Origin: Phycisphaerales bacterium
Lineage (GTDB): Bacteria > Planctomycetota > Phycisphaerae > Phycisphaerales > UBA1924
Assembly (NCBI GenBank): GCA_029260495.1
Contig: JAJDDD010000008.1
Location: forward strand, 1 to 64,000
Length of the DNA: 64,000 nt
Reading direction: 5' to 3'
Notes under the pieces: generated by a model
What the model was told of the DNA's origin: nothing
The model's database searches: none
What the model saw: the letters and a program-made list of their open reading frames with translations, nothing else
Part shown: positions 29,600 to 38,610 of the stretch, piece by piece
Layout: each line of letters starts with the position of its first letter
Position numbering within the stretch: the stretch's first letter is position 1
Position numbers and translations under genes: made by a program

Positions 29600-31645
29600 T
29601 CAGATCAGAGCAGCATCCGTGAGGACTTCAACTGTTGCGGGCCCAGTGTGGGTCAGCGCCTGCTGCAATGCTTCTTTCAGTTGGCTCCGCTGATTTACGC
29701 GAATGCCGAGTCCGCCGCAACTTGTGACGAAGTCAGCGATATTCGGATTCACCAGCGCTGTGTTCCAGACTTCCCACTCACCGGCGCGCTGCTCCTTTGA
29801 GATCTTGCCCAGCTCGTTGTTGTTGAGCAGCACATGGGTCAGGTTGATCCCGTGCTTGGCGGCTGTCGTCACCTCCCACGGATATTGCCCGAACCCGCCG
29901 TCGCCTGTCACGACAACCACGGGTCGGTTTGCGAACAGTTTCCAAAAAGAGTCCTTCGAAACTTTGTGCGCCTGCGTGGCGGCCCAAGCGCCAAGCCCCG
30001 CCGGGTACCCAAATCCGATGGAGCCAAGATATCCCGACATCAGCACGGCCTGCTTGCCGCTCGCTTCAAAATACCGGCCGAAGCTGTATGTATTGTTGCC
30101 GACATCGACACAAATGATTGCGTTTTCAGGCACAGCGCGGTTCATCTCATCAAAAACCGCGATTGAACTGACGCCCTCTCCGCGGTCATCTGTCAGCCGG
30201 CTCACCTTTTCTTCGCGCCAGATGCGCCAACGCTCTGCGATTTCGTCAGTGTGGTCAATGGTCGCGTGGTTGCCCTTCAGTTCGTCGAGCAGGATCCGCG
30301 CGGTGACGCCCAACTCACCCCAAACCGGCACATCCACTGCGTGAAACTTGCCCAGGTGCATGCGGTCGTAGTCCACCTGAATGGTTGGCTTTTTGGGCGT
30401 AATTCCGGTGTGGTTTGAAAAGCTGGCGCCGAAGACAAGCAGCACATCAGCTTCATTCATGAACCAACTTGCAATTGGCGTGCCTGAGCGGCCGAGAACA
30501 CCGCAGCCGAGCGGGTGTCCGTCATTGCTCGCGGCGCCATGATCACCAATCAGCCCCTTGCCCTTGAATGTGGTTAGCACGGGGCACTTGAGTTCTTCAG
30601 CCAGCGCACAGATTGCGCTCATCTCAAATCGCGCTCCATGCCCAATTATCATAATTGGTCGATTGGCTTTTCGAAGTAGATCAAGCGCGGCTTCGATTGA
30701 CTCTCGCGCAGGTGTAATGGTCAACGGCGCCAATCGACCGGTGGAAGTTCCTGCCTTCTCATCCTCTTTGGCTGGGTTTGTTTGCACGTCATCTGGAAAT
30801 ATCACATGTGAAACGCCTTGCTTCACCAGCGCATTCTTGATCGCCAGCGACATCAACTCAGCATGATTCGATCCAGGCAGGCAGAGGTGGCTGAACTCAG
30901 CGACCGCGCTAAATGCATCCTTGAGTGGGAGCTCCTGAAATGCGCCCGGTCCGAAGACTTGCTGGTTCACCTGGCCCGTCAGCGCAAGAAGCGGAGCGCG
31001 ATCCACCCGGGCGTCCCAACATCCGGTGAGCAGGTTGGTCGCGCCGGGGCCTGCGATGGTGAGGCACGCCGCTGGCCGACCGGTAAGCTTGCCGAAGGCT
31101 GACGCTGCAAACGCCGCGGCGCCTTCGTGCCTGATGCCGATATAGCTGAGTGTCCCTGCCTGCTCCTGACGGCGCAGTGCGTCTGCCAGGCCAAGATTCG
31201 AATGCCCAACCATCCCGAAGACATGCGTGACGCCCCAGTTCACCATTGTCTCTGCCATTACGTCGGTGACTGTGCGCTCATGTTCGGGTTCAGTTTCAAT
31301 GCCGACATAGATGCCATCTTCGCGATCTTCAACCGGATACGTCTCGATGCCATCATCAAAGCCACCCGGGGGTTTGCCGGTCAGGGGGTCAAAGTCCCAC
31401 CCATGCCACGGACAGCGGAGGTAGCAATCGCCCTTTTCGTTGCACTCGATCGAGCCTTCACCCAGCGGCCCGCCCTGATGCGGGCAGGCGTTATCAAGCG
31501 CCGCATATTGACCTTGATGGTGCGTCAGACAAATTTGTTTGACGGAGTCGCCCCGGTCAATCACCACCGTCATGACCCGTCCTTCGGGCAGCTCGTCTTT
31601 GCCCGCGACGCGGCGCCAGGTAAGAGATACAGGAGTTTCAGGCAT
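29600..31645 (-). CDS. Rieske domain fused to a ThDP-dependent enzyme
   Basis: 681 aa. The N-terminal Rieske [2Fe-2S] domain (residues about 10-115) has all four ligands: C54 and H56 in CPHQGG, C78 and H81 in CPWHGW. From about residue 122 it is a full ThDP-dependent enzyme of the acetolactate synthase/pyruvate oxidase superfamily. The PYR domain contains GIRHEGAAAFAASAFGKLTG with the catalytic Glu. A central domain (PIMIIGHGARFE) comes next, and the PP domain has the ThDP/Mg motif GDGGFGQYPWEVTTA to NNNELG near residue 578. The fusion suggests electron transfer between a Rieske centre and a ThDP-bound intermediate (inference). The ATG at 31645 has GAGAGG upstream and overlaps the DUF1622 gene by 8 nt. 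The substrate is unknown. Confidence 0.9.
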   Translation of the reverse strand: MPETPVSLTWRRVAGKDELPEGRVMTVVIDRGDSVKQICLTHHQGQYAALDNACPHQGGPLGEGSIECNEKGDCYLRCPWHGWDFDPLTGKPPGGFDDGIETYPVEDREDGIYVGIETEPEHERTVTDVMAETMVNWGVTHVFGMVGHSNLGLADALRRQEQAGTLSYIGIRHEGAAAFAASAFGKLTGRPAACLTIAGPGATNLLTGCWDARVDRAPLLALTGQVNQQVFGPGAFQELPLKDAFSAVAEFSHLCLPGSNHAELMSLAIKNALVKQGVSHVIFPDDVQTNPAKEDEKAGTSTGRLAPLTITPARESIEAALDLLRKANRPIMIIGHGARFEMSAICALAEELKCPVLTTFKGKGLIGDHGAASNDGHPLGCGVLGRSGTPIASWFMNEADVLLVFGASFSNHTGITPKKPTIQVDYDRMHLGKFHAVDVPVWGELGVTARILLDELKGNHATIDHTDEIAERWRIWREEKVSRLTDDRGEGVSSIAVFDEMNRAVPENAIICVDVGNNTYSFGRYFEASGKQAVLMSGYLGSIGFGYPAGLGAWAATQAHKVSKDSFWKLFANRPVVVVTGDGGFGQYPWEVTTAAKHGINLTHVLLNNNELGKISKEQRAGEWEVWNTALVNPNIADFVTSCGGLGIRVNQRSQLKEALQQALTHTGPATVEVLTDAALI

Positions 31646-32831: not shown

Positions 32832-34463
32832 TTAGTAGTCGGGCCCCGCAAAACGCACGCCCGCCAGCTCTGCGACTTCTCGCTTCCAACTGGTGAGGTC
32901 GTCAGGATTGAACCCTGAAACCGAGTCGTGCCCGCACGCCCGCGCAAGCACCGCTATCAGATCCGTCGCCGCCCGGAAAAACCGTTCGAGCCTTTTGGCT
33001 GATTCCTCAACGATCAGCCGGGCTCGCAGATGATCCTTCTGCGTTGCGATGCCGACGGGGCAGTTGTTGGAGTTACACGCTCGCATTCCCAGGCACCCAA
33101 TCGCCTGGATCGCAGCGTTTGAGACTGCGATCGCATCCGCACCGAGCGCCAACGCCTTGGCAAAGTCTGCGGGCGTGCGCAGCCCGCCGGTGATGACCAG
33201 CGTTGTTTCCGGGCTTACGCGATCCAGATGCCGGCGCGCCCGCGCGAGCGCGGGGATCGTTGGAACGGAAATGTTATCCCGAAACAGAGTGGGCGCCGCT
33301 CCCGTGCCGCCGCCGCGCCCGTCAAGAATGATGTAGTCAGCCGACGCCTCAAGCGCGAAGTCGATGTCGGCTTCAATGTGCTGCGCGCTCAGTTTGAACC
33401 CAACAGGAATGCCGCCGGTCGTTGAGCGAACCTCCTCAGCCAGCTCCTTGAAATCCGCAGCCGTGTGCAAGTCGAGGAACGTCGCCGGGCTGATCGCGGG
33501 CTTGCCCACCTCGATGCCGCGAACCCGTGCGATCGTGACATCAACTTTATCACCAGGCAGATGTCCCCCCGTGCCCGTCTTCGCGCCCTGGCCTCCTTTG
33601 AAGTGAAATGCTTGACATCGCGCCACCTTGTCCATGCTGAAGCCAAACCGCGCCGAGGCCAATTCGTAAAAATACCGCGAGTTCGCTTCCTGCTCTTCAG
33701 GAAGCATGCCTCCCTCTCCTGAGCAAATCCCGGCGCCAGCGCGTTCGGCTCCCATCGAAAGCGCTACCTTCGCCTCTTTCGACAGCGCGCCAAAGCTCAT
33801 GTCGCTCACAAAGAGCGGGATCTCAAGCACAAGCGGCTTCTTCGCCCGAGGGCCAATCGTCACACTTGTTGAAACGGGGTGGTCATCGAGCAGCGGCTTC
33901 GTCGCGAGCTGCGCCGTGAGAATCTGAAGGTCATCCCAAGTGGGAAGATCCTTGCGCGGCACGCCCATCGCCGCCGACGGCCCATGATGGCCGAACTTCG
34001 AGAGCCCGTTCTTCGCTAGCTCCTGAATAAAATTGACGTGCGGCTCCTCTGGCGCGCCATGAACATCCGCATACGTCCCCAGATATTCATCTCGTTCGTA
34101 AGGCTGCGGGTTCTTCTTCTCCCACGCAGCGATCTCATCCTCATCCACAAACACAGCCCGTTCGCCGTCATGGGCCTCGACCCATGCGTTGAACTTATGA
34201 AGGCGTTCTTCATTGTTGTATGCGGAGACGCCCGTATCAAATCGGTAATCCCAGCCGTGAACGCCGCAAATGATATTGTCACCATCGATAGAGCCGTCAG
34301 CCATGAGCGCGCCACGGTGCAGGCACCGACCATAGAGAACGGACACACGATCATCGCCATCGCGCTCATAGCGGATGATGACGAGGTCCACATTCGCAAC
34401 CAGCGCTGGCGCCGGCTCTCCGGGCGTGAGCTCGTCCCACTTCGCAACGGGGATTTTCTTCAC
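32832..34463 (-). CDS. Rieske domain fused to a glutamate-synthase-like FMN enzyme
   Basis: 543 aa with a GTG start at 34463 preceded by GAGGAG. The N-terminal Rieske domain has ligands C47 and H49 (CLHRG) and C66 and H69 (CGVHGW). From about residue 150 it is a glutamate synthase-type (GltB2) FMN/Fe-S domain: VSDMSFGALSKEAKVALSMG, ARAGAGICSGEGGM in part (GAGICSGEGG), KTGTGGHLPG, ILDGRGGGTGAAPT, and the cluster motif CLGMRACNSNNCPVG (CX5CX4C). It lacks the GltB amidotransferase domain, so a stand-alone glutamate synthase is unlikely. It probably oxidises or reduces an unknown substrate with electrons passed through the Rieske centre (inference). It is the first gene of the five-gene operon that ends in the second Rieske fusion. 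Confidence 0.9.
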   Translation of the reverse strand: MKKIPVAKWDELTPGEPAPALVANVDLVIIRYERDGDDRVSVLYGRCLHRGALMADGSIDGDNIICGVHGWDYRFDTGVSAYNNEERLHKFNAWVEAHDGERAVFVDEDEIAAWEKKNPQPYERDEYLGTYADVHGAPEEPHVNFIQELAKNGLSKFGHHGPSAAMGVPRKDLPTWDDLQILTAQLATKPLLDDHPVSTSVTIGPRAKKPLVLEIPLFVSDMSFGALSKEAKVALSMGAERAGAGICSGEGGMLPEEQEANSRYFYELASARFGFSMDKVARCQAFHFKGGQGAKTGTGGHLPGDKVDVTIARVRGIEVGKPAISPATFLDLHTAADFKELAEEVRSTTGGIPVGFKLSAQHIEADIDFALEASADYIILDGRGGGTGAAPTLFRDNISVPTIPALARARRHLDRVSPETTLVITGGLRTPADFAKALALGADAIAVSNAAIQAIGCLGMRACNSNNCPVGIATQKDHLRARLIVEESAKRLERFFRAATDLIAVLARACGHDSVSGFNPDDLTSWKREVAELAGVRFAGPDY

Positions 34464-35448: not shown

Positions 35449-36276
35449 TTAGAACTGAATGCGGACGCCGACTCCGATGATGAAGTCTCGTTCCACTCGA
35501 TGATCCAGCTGCTGTTGGATGGGGATCTGGACTGTGGCTTCGATCACCCATTGGGTTGTGGCGTATTGAATGCCCGGCGAAATGAAAAGTTCATGGTCTC
35601 CGTTGGTTTCGTAGAAGCCATTCAGTTCCAGCGATCCGAAGATTGCGACCGGACGATCTGAGGCATACGTTTCGGGCGCCAGGCGATAGAGGTATGACAG
35701 ATCGTATCGGAGCAGGTCTTCTCCATCGCCCCCGCCACCTGTGTTGAACTGCCATAGGAGGTCAGCGTTGAACGTATGGCGATTTTCGACGTGAGTGAAG
35801 ACGCCGCCAAAGATTGGATCGAAAGAATCTGAACTGAACTCATCTCTGCCGGTTGGAAACTCCAGCCCGCCAATAAGATCAAATCGGGTTGTGTTCGTCG
35901 GGCCAAAGTCATCCCGGTACAGGCGCAGTTTAGAGAGCAGGCGCATGTCACCAAACCCTGCATGAGAACTGTCGTCGCCGGTCGTATTGTTTTCAACTCG
36001 ACTCGAAAGCGCTAGGGGTGTTTCAAGAACGAGTGTGAACTTTTCCGATACGCCGTAAGCGAGCGTTGTGTTCGAGGAATACAGATCAACGTCGACGTCT
36101 GAGGCGGCGTTGTTCAGATCGCCCTCGGAATACCGGAGCTGCTGACGAACGATCAGGCCGCCTTTGGACGGCTGCAGGGCGATGTTGGAGTTGATCGGCG
36201 CCTGGGCGTGCGCGGGCATTCCCATCGCGAGCAGAAGCAGGAGAGCAAATAAAATGGATCGCACTGTCCCTGTCAT
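35449..36276 (-). CDS. Outer-membrane beta-barrel protein, MetA/phenol-degradation transporter-like
   Basis: 275 aa with a signal peptide (SILFALLLLLAMGMPAHA, cleavage about residue 24). The rest alternates in the way of a beta barrel and ends in an aromatic Phe (VGVRIQF). It resembles the Phenol_MetA_deg type of outer-membrane proteins: LTLVLETPL-like strands, FGDMRLLSKLRLYR, GLEFPTGRDEF. Its ATG overlaps by ATGA the end of the putative selenoprotein frame, so the two form an operon. It is probably a passive outer-membrane channel or an envelope component linked to metal handling (inference). Confidence 0.8.
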   Translation of the reverse strand: MTGTVRSILFALLLLLAMGMPAHAQAPINSNIALQPSKGGLIVRQQLRYSEGDLNNAASDVDVDLYSSNTTLAYGVSEKFTLVLETPLALSSRVENNTTGDDSSHAGFGDMRLLSKLRLYRDDFGPTNTTRFDLIGGLEFPTGRDEFSSDSFDPIFGGVFTHVENRHTFNADLLWQFNTGGGGDGEDLLRYDLSYLYRLAPETYASDRPVAIFGSLELNGFYETNGDHELFISPGIQYATTQWVIEATVQIPIQQQLDHRVERDFIIGVGVRIQF

Positions 36277-36644
36277 TCCGGCATCTCAATTCGATCGAGC
36301 GTGAAACCGCTGTCTTTGATTGCCTGAGCGAGTTGGTCTCGGGTGGCGGGGTCGTTCGGGGAAAGTTCGACGTAAACCTTTCCCGTTGAAAGTTCGACGC
36401 GAACATCTTCAACACCTGGAGCGTCGGCAAACTGCCGATTGATGCTATGGACTCAGAAGGGGCATCCGATTCCTTTGACCCAGAGCGTCGCGGTGTTGCC
36501 CGCCGATGTTGGCGCGCCCGAAGTCACAAGTGTTGACGCTGCATCAATCGAAGTCGGCGGCTTTGGCGAAGTCGAACAGCCCAACATTGTTGATGTGACA
36601 ATAACGCCAAGAGTAAAGCATTGCATATGATGATTGGTGCTCAT
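36273..36644 (-). CDS. Probable selenoprotein: HMA-domain lipoprotein with CxxU (in-frame TGA read as Sec)
   Basis: 123 residues if TGA at 36455-36453 is decoded as selenocysteine (residue 64). The ATG at 36644 has GGAG 9 nt upstream. The N-terminal part looks like a lipoprotein signal (MQCFTLGVIVTSTMLGCS). Residues about 53-120 are an HMA metallochaperone domain: TLWVKGIGCPF-U-VHSINRQF, where GIxCxxU replaces the usual GMxCxxC. VEDVRVELSTGKVYVEL and AIKDSGFTLDRIEM follow. Three sequence facts favour read-through: the frame continues as a complete HMA fold, it ends in an ATGA overlap with the next gene, and a hairpin of bacterial-SECIS type follows the TGA. If TGA were a stop, the product would be 63 aa with no metal site. 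A pseudogene is the alternative. No Sec machinery is visible in the window. Confidence 0.75.
36424..36455 (-). promoter_or_regulatory. Bacterial SECIS-like element just after in-frame TGA
   Basis: Immediately after the TGA (36455-36453, minus strand) there are 14 nt, then a perfect 6-bp stem TCGGCA/TGCCGA closing a 3-nt loop GTT. The loop G is the 21st nt after the TGA. From known bacterial SECIS rules (small apical loop starting with G, about 16-37 nt downstream, inside the coding sequence), this geometry fits. No energy calculation was run. Confidence 0.65.
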
Positions 36645-36792: not shown

Positions 36793-38610
36793 CTACTCCC
36801 CCTGATCCAGCACCGCCATGAACGCCTCTTGCGGAATATCCACCGATCCGATGGATTTCATCCGCTTCTTTCCTTCTTTTTGCTTTTCCAGCAGCTTGCG
36901 CTTGCGTGAGACATCGCCGCCGTAGCACTTCGCGGTGACGTTCTTGCGCATGGACTTGATGGTTTCGCGCGCGATGACTTTGCCGCCGATGACTGCCTGG
37001 AGGGGGATCTCAAACTGGTGGCGGTCGATTTCTTTGCGCAGGCGAACGAGGAGCGTTCTGCCTCGTTTGTCAGCGTTGTCGCGGTGGCAGATAAGTGAGA
37101 GCGCCTCAACCTGCTCGCCGTTGACGAGAATATCCACCTTGGCGAGTCGATCGGTGCGATAGCCGACGAGGTCATAATCCATCGTGCCGTAGCCTCGCGT
37201 CATGGACTTCAGCTTGTCGTAGAAGTCGTAGATGATCTCCGCCATCGGGATTTCGTATTCAATGATTTGGCGCGTGTCGGAGATCATCTGCTGGTGTTTG
37301 AAGACGCCGCGACGAATGGTGCACAGCGCCATGATGTCCCCGATGTTTTCCGTCGGGACGATGATTTCGAGTTTGACGATGGGCTCGCGCAGCTCCTTCC
37401 AGATCGAGGGGTCGGGAAGGTCAGCCGGGTTGGTGATGAGCATGGTCCTGCCATCTGTGGTTTCAAGCTCATAGGTGACGGTGGGCGCCGTCTGGATGAT
37501 TTCGACGCCGCCCTCGCGTTCGATGCGCTCCTGGATGATCTCCATATGAAGAAGACCAAGAAAACCACAGCGGAAGCCAAAGCCCAGCGCTTCAGAATGC
37601 ACCGGCAGATAGGTAAAGCTTGCGTCATTGAGGGCCAGCCGTTCGATGGAGTCGCGCAGCTCCTCGAAGTCCCCGCCTTTCTTTGAGCCTGCGGTCGTTG
37701 TCGCGGGGTAGAAGTCACAGAAGACCATCTGCCGAGGCTCTTCGTAGCCGGGAAGCGCCTTCTCAGCTGGGTGAAGATCACTTGTGATGGTGTCGCCGAC
37801 GCGCACGTCCTTCAGCGTTTTGATTGAGGCGATGAAGTACCCGGTTTCACCAGTGCCGAGCGTTTGAGCCTTGGTGGGCTTGGGCGTGTATTTACCAAGC
37901 TCGGTGACGTTGTAGGTTCTGCCCGTGCCCATCATGCGCACTTTGTCGCCCACGGTGATGGATCCATCGAAGACTCGGATATAGATCACGACGCCGCGAT
38001 AGTCGTCGTAGTGACTATCGAAGACGAGGGCGCGCAGCTTGTCCGTCACCTGCTCGCGCGGCGGAGGCAGCCGATCACAAATAACGCTCAAGAGTTCATT
38101 AAGGCCTTCGCCTGTCTTGGCCGAGCAGAAAATGCAATCCTCAGCGGATAACCCGAGCACATGTTCGATTTCCAGAGCGATGTCCACCGGGCGTGCGGTG
38201 GGAAGGTCGATCTTATTGACAACGGGGATAAGATCCAGATCCTGCGCGATCGCGAGATATGCATTGGCGACAGTCTGTGCCTGCACACCCTGGGCCGCAT
38301 CCACCACCAGCAGCGCCCCTTCGCATGCAGTCAGCGCACGGCTGACCTCGTAAGCAAAGTCCACATGACCAGGTGTGTCGATAAAGTTGAGCATGTACTC
38401 CTGGCCGTTGTGAACATGCTTAACAGTGACGGCAGACGCCTTAATGGTGATCCCGCGCTCGCGTTCGAGATCCATCGAATCGAGCAGTTGCTCGCGGGCC
38501 TCGCGGTCGGAGACAGCGTGCGTAGATTGCAGCAACCGATCCGCCAGCGTGGACTTGCCGTGATCGATGTGAGCGATGATTGAGAAGTTTCGGATGATTG
38601 GTTTGGACAT
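36793..38610 (-). CDS. lepA: Elongation factor 4 (LepA)
   Basis: 605 aa, the full family length. Ribosome-associated translational GTPase thought to act on back-translocation or initiation. The G domain has AHIDHGKSTLADRL (G1), the RGITIKA switch, DTPGHVDF (G3) and NKIDLP (G4). The later EF-G-like domains and the C-terminal LepA signature (GGDVSRKRKLLEKQKEGKKRMK) are intact. It lies downstream of the nitrilase-family gene, which ends in a hairpin, so it probably has its own promoter; a TACAAT box lies at 38659-38664 on this strand. Confidence 0.97.
   Translation of the reverse strand: MSKPIIRNFSIIAHIDHGKSTLADRLLQSTHAVSDREAREQLLDSMDLERERGITIKASAVTVKHVHNGQEYMLNFIDTPGHVDFAYEVSRALTACEGALLVVDAAQGVQAQTVANAYLAIAQDLDLIPVVNKIDLPTARPVDIALEIEHVLGLSAEDCIFCSAKTGEGLNELLSVICDRLPPPREQVTDKLRALVFDSHYDDYRGVVIYIRVFDGSITVGDKVRMMGTGRTYNVTELGKYTPKPTKAQTLGTGETGYFIASIKTLKDVRVGDTITSDLHPAEKALPGYEEPRQMVFCDFYPATTTAGSKKGGDFEELRDSIERLALNDASFTYLPVHSEALGFGFRCGFLGLLHMEIIQERIEREGGVEIIQTAPTVTYELETTDGRTMLITNPADLPDPSIWKELREPIVKLEIIVPTENIGDIMALCTIRRGVFKHQQMISDTRQIIEYEIPMAEIIYDFYDKLKSMTRGYGTMDYDLVGYRTDRLAKVDILVNGEQVEALSLICHRDNADKRGRTLLVRLRKEIDRHQFEIPLQAVIGGKVIARETIKSMRKNVTAKCYGGDVSRKRKLLEKQKEGKKRMKSIGSVDIPQEAFMAVLDQGE

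Follow-up and report, generated by a model that had tools for sequence, protein, structure and literature searches.

We begin with the question that this locus raises: is a TGA codon that stands exactly where a metal-binding motif has its second cysteine read as selenocysteine (Sec), and, if so, what would the selenium be for? The window, by which we mean the whole stretch of 64,000 nucleotides that was analysed, carries on its minus strand a gene (36273..36644) whose frame starts at an ATG (36644-36642), meets an in-frame TGA at 36455-36453, and then stays open for 59 codons up to a second TGA (36275-36273), which overlaps the ATG (36276-36274) of the next gene. Read through, the frame predicts a lipoprotein of 123 residues with Sec at position 64: a hydrophobic N-terminus that includes MLGC is followed by a linker and then by an HMA domain with the metal motif GIGCPFU. 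The lipobox-like TSTMLGC23 was judged by eye, and its Cys23 is invariant in our alignment A1. With the TGA translated as Cys, residues 53-114 match the Pfam HMA domain (PF00403, E 8.9e-9) at 36.1 bits, above the gathering cut-off of 24.8 bits. The upstream neighbour, lepA (36793..38610, minus strand), is given for context only; its product finds its best matches, at 72% identity, in Phycisphaerae/Phycisphaerales MAGs, which gives the lineage of the organism. The original prediction, made from the sequence, had the TGA on the second Cys of an HMA motif, the rest of the domain encoded past it, and an ATGA overlap at the end of the gene; all three hold. We estimate the probability that the gene is a selenoprotein gene, with UGA64 read as Sec, at about 0.92.

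The plainest competing account is an ordinary cysteine gene in which a nonsense mutation or an assembly error has changed TGC or TGT to TGA, leaving a truncated product of 63 residues or none. A single base change would be enough, the base calls are known from a 22-contig assembly alone, and the closest Cys-type homologues (in genomes G286 and G128) come from organisms without selA. The frame beyond the TGA argues the other way. Taken by itself, the post-TGA segment is recognised at E 2e-20 by a family profile from which the window protein was left out, and the frame therefore shows none of the decay that the original prediction had named as evidence against Sec. No Cys-type member of the family in the alignment departs from cysteine at either motif position, which places an invariant Cys at the TGA codon itself. 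A genome-wide reassignment of TGA to sense was also considered and is ruled out, because the same gene stops at a TGA within which the next gene's start overlaps.

Can the organism decode Sec at all? The window belongs to an assembly of 3.2 Mb in 22 contigs, 97% complete, and the genes that the original prediction would have us look for lie together in one cluster (contig C9:557087-561717): tRNA-Sec with anticodon tca as called by ARAGORN (68.9 bits), selA (494), selB (353) and selD (338), all above their curated cut-offs. At least three further genes of the same genome have an in-frame TGA. One is SelD itself (NCAGUAGKL); the other two, beside tRNA-Sec, are an AhpC/TSA gene (RAFWUPFC; L081:961, equal to G000:C9:554960) and a redoxin/deiodinase-like gene (GCLTUPPF; L081:2685, equal to G000:C9:556684), which are likely to be two further selenoprotein genes. 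All three TGAs are followed by perfect hairpins with 3-nt loops that begin with G, the loop G being at +33 in SelD, at +22 in AhpC/TSA (loop GTT, as in the window) and at +26 in the redoxin, and the stems of the latter two having 7 bp each. Given the cluster and these genes, Sec decoding in this organism is very probable, and the hairpin of the window gene, described below, resembles its siblings. Searches of this genome for two other selenoprotein families gave nothing further: matches to the formate dehydrogenase alpha subunit were below the cut-off with no TGA inside, and no match to the DF-family selenoprotein was found.

We turn to the signal that would direct the recoding. Among the marks by which a bacterial selenoprotein gene was judged is a SECIS hairpin close behind the UGA whose loop begins with G, and the window gene has one at 36424..36438 on the minus strand. 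It is TCGGCA-GTT-TGCCGA, the 6-bp stem and GTT loop that had been predicted, with the loop G at +21 after the UGA, and its energy is -7.2 kcal/mol as a bare hairpin and -7.8 in the local fold. Taken alone it exceeds chance moderately: an equally good hairpin occurs in 0.8% of 20,000 synonymous recodings of the gene (about 1 in 120) and after 2.5% of the window's 2,396 TGAs. Folding of the roughly 50 nt past the TGA, which the prediction had proposed as a check, finds the hairpin, while the energy of the whole 52 nt is ordinary (z -0.55). The terminal TGA (36273..36275, minus strand) acts as an internal control, being a stop with no comparable SECIS-like hairpin after it; screening the window against Rfam at gathering thresholds gave no RNA family at the internal site.

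The hairpin was then compared among relatives. All 13 genes with a TGA at the second motif position (that of the window included) have the loop G exactly at +21 and a stem of 5-7 bp, whereas among 68 Cys-type sequences only 2 have, between +16 and +25, a hairpin at least as stable as -6 kcal/mol (Fisher p 3e-13, Mann-Whitney p 1e-11), both values being optimistic because related species are phylogenetically clustered and their independence is overstated. In the relatives the hairpin is GCGCTC-GGTC-GAGCGC or a near variant, which codes RSVER; in the window it is formed by another stem, coding NRQFAD, and its loop G is still at +21, so that the position is kept and the sequence is not. The one UPFC gene of the window's own family (G266), where the TGA is at the first position, has no canonical hairpin under the strict rule.

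The next question is how far the TGA and the capacity to decode it go together in other genomes. Homologues were sought in 201 genomes of the order and then, by profile, in 163 genomes of the family and 397 of the class; a protein-query scan of the genome contig database found no relative of the HMA protein. A TGA (read as U) falls exactly at the motif cysteines in 13 other genomes. The motif is CPFU, with the TGA at the second position, in three of them (G571, G426, G593), UxxC in two (UPFC in G266, UGGC in G061) and UxxU in eight (G386, G477, G480, G541, G367, G468, G522, G565). Apparent TGAs near the C-terminus in G113, G188 and G106 proved to be terminal stops. The gene selA is present in all 14 TGA-type genomes and in 6 of the 56 with the Cys type only (p 2e-10), and within the window's own family in 2 of 2 against 0 of 39 (p 0.001), values that are again optimistic for clustered species; of the 41 genomes tested in that family, only the window genome (G000) and G266 have selA, exactly the two with a TGA. 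A chance mutation or an assembly error would have to coincide with same-motif TGAs in 13 further genomes, each with selA, with a hairpin that 12 other TGA genes have at exactly the same SECIS position, and with a full Sec machinery, and we regard it as very improbable. The selenoprotein reading put forward in the original prediction is thereby supported from several sides (machinery, Cys homologues, undecayed frame, homologous TGAs and a positionally kept SECIS).

In a midpoint-rooted tree of the concatenated HMA and barrel proteins (the barrel is discussed below), the window gene stands among Cys-type relatives, with G266 on an adjacent branch and the remaining Sec genes in a third group of their own. 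By parsimony, three Cys/Sec changes are needed on this tree, a pattern that we read from the sequences as repeated exchange, of the kind already described for bacterial selenoproteins (PMC1794560). Outside the class, a search of the phylum yields further motifs (UPIU, CPIU, UAVC, USPU), several in proteins with a C-terminal extension, as in the UPIU-type lipoproteins at L231, L232 and L235 (G644, G629, G889). One locus (L115, G565) has a second HMA frame with UxxU (GVTURGU...RSVERV) and so may hold two such genes, and the UPFC-type homologue at L078 (G266:C123:6000-10500) adjoins a FeoB-like gene.

HMA-domain selenoproteins are already known as a kind: recent reviews mention MerT-type transporters and cation ATPases that contain Sec, as well as a UxxU protein of the HMA type (PMC13188914, PMC9312934). 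One of the closest described systems is NF041115 (UxxU_metal_bind, metal-binding (seleno)protein), which likewise has Sec in the metal motif of an HMA-type domain; its model, however, has 74 positions, covers no more than the domain and does not extend to the lipoprotein part, and against its cut-off of 95 bits the window protein scores 27.7 and the best relative tested 43.4. NF045683, the MerT/CopZ fusion-like heavy metal transport selenoprotein, shares an HMA/CopZ-like domain and Sec with the window protein, yet is a 235-position MerT fusion with a cut-off of 375 bits, against which the window protein scores 17.2. MerP (TIGR02052), too, is a small HMA protein of the envelope whose metal site has two chalcogens, and relatives of the window gene lie beside MerT and MerR; unlike MerP, the window protein (21.5 bits, cut-off 92.55) is a predicted lipoprotein with a CPFU motif and an outer-membrane barrel gene next to it. 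The best NCBIfam scores are to CopZ and TIGR00003 copper-binding HMA proteins (43.9 and 40.1 bits, below the cut-offs), which have the same domain with CxxC in place of Sec and are not secreted lipoproteins; PDB sequence matches are likewise to copper ATPase domains and CopZ. By its scores the window protein is thus an HMA selenoprotein outside NF041115, MerP and MerT/CopZ-Se as those models define them; the relatives tested also fall far short of the cut-offs for such selenoproteins. A lipoprotein family with Sec at either or both ligands is apparently undescribed, no description of the lipoprotein-plus-barrel pair having been found in the literature searched, whose coverage leaves out most subscription papers and preprints.

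The partner gene (35449..36276, minus strand), joined to the selenoprotein gene by the ATGA overlap, encodes a predicted outer-membrane beta-barrel of 275 residues. It adjoins the HMA gene in 72 of 73 homologous loci and is kept at 27-67% identity across relatives; in L232 and L235 a barrel-like gene apparently stands before the HMA gene and not after it. The partner of the window gene has no family match in Pfam or NCBIfam, and a PDB sequence search with the barrel profile returned irrelevant low-complexity matches only. AlphaFold2, given an alignment of 25 sequences, models it with confidence as an all-beta barrel (pLDDT 89, pTM 0.83), which we predict to be a 12-stranded outer-membrane barrel. 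The best PDB matches by Foldseek are FapF (5o65/5o67) and the COG4313 outer-membrane channel 4rl8 (E 7e-9 to 6e-8); their barrel fold is like that of the partner at a TM of about 0.6, with only 9-14% identity.

What would such a pair be for? The genes around the homologues give a direction. A MerR-type regulator lies upstream of the HMA gene in the closest relatives (G286, G128, G212, G274); in G128 the gene directly downstream encodes DF-family, MerT and HMA segments in one protein; MerT adjoins the HMA gene or lies no more than about 3 kb from it in G106, G274, G426, G386 and G571; and G571 has AcrB-type RND and CusB-like efflux genes close by. The mercury link rests on these relatives, because MerT, on which assignment to a mercury-resistance operon turns, has no match anywhere in the window genome, and a motif search of the window found no MerR. 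Several relatives also have, between the MerR and HMA genes, a small secreted Cys-rich protein with DCPGxxxCPxTGxxxCxDxC units and no family match (L121:11882-12115, L122:8972-9340, L123:7527-7847). Near the selenoprotein gene, the window itself contains two minus-strand genes (29600-31645 and 32832-34463) with an N-terminal Rieske domain each, which is joined to a TPP-dependent enzyme in one of them and to a glutamate synthase FMN domain in the other.

That the selenoprotein binds metal is, judging from the motif, the fold family and these neighbours, probable. It could instead serve in thiol/selenol redox chemistry, for example in periplasmic disulfide or peroxide handling: most bacterial selenoproteins are thought to be redox-active (PMC9312934), and CxxU, UxxC and UxxU motifs are known from redox folds as well. 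The domain here, though, is HMA and not thioredoxin-like, the relatives' neighbours are MerR/MerT and CusB/RND-type genes, and the double-Sec forms fit a metal site with two ligands, so that a redox role seems unlikely. Returning to metal binding, whether mercury is the main metal is about an even call. Handling of copper or silver at the envelope, in the manner of CusF or CopZ, is a possible though less likely alternative, to which the higher scores of the window protein on copper-chaperone HMA models than on MerP and the RND and CusB-like genes of G571 would point; against it are the MerT genes beside the HMA gene in near relatives and the exceptional tightness with which selenolates hold Hg(II). 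A role with Hg(II) or another soft metal in the envelope is our best guess, because the close relatives adjoin MerR and MerT genes.

The mechanism that we propose runs as follows. SelB and Sec-tRNA, directed by the SECIS hairpin, would read UGA64 as selenocysteine, giving a secreted lipoprotein (signal peptide with lipobox, linker, and one MerP/CopZ-like HMA domain) with a C-P-F-U metal site. The selenolate/thiolate pair would hold soft metal ions, most likely Hg(II) and possibly Cu(I) or Ag(I), more tightly than CxxC does, and would remain in the deprotonated state that selenolates have at neutral pH. Together with the 12-stranded barrel, the lipoprotein may then act in metal capture, sequestration or passage at the envelope. 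The recoding signal, the machinery, the homologous TGAs, the HMA fold family, the conserved gene pair and the MerR/MerT context of close relatives can be read from the sequences; incorporation of Sec in the cell, the identity of the metal, the direction of any transport and the function of the barrel are what we infer.

More broadly, we suggest with some reserve, at just short of even odds, a phylum-wide and undescribed group of Planctomycetota envelope selenolipoproteins with an interchangeable Cys/Sec pair (CxxU, UxxC, UxxU) and a dedicated barrel, acting on mercury or another soft metal, in which selenium is a ligand and not a redox center. Standard gene callers would truncate such TGA genes. 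The MerR and MerT genes of the relatives and the conserved barrel suggest an envelope system for mercury or soft metals outside the family models tested, and the series CC, CU, UC and UU in one HMA site offers a natural set for asking what selenium does to metal binding. Selenocysteine is mostly treated as a redox residue; if the proposal is true, selenium in these organisms would serve as a metal ligand in detoxification or outer-membrane passage and not in redox catalysis.
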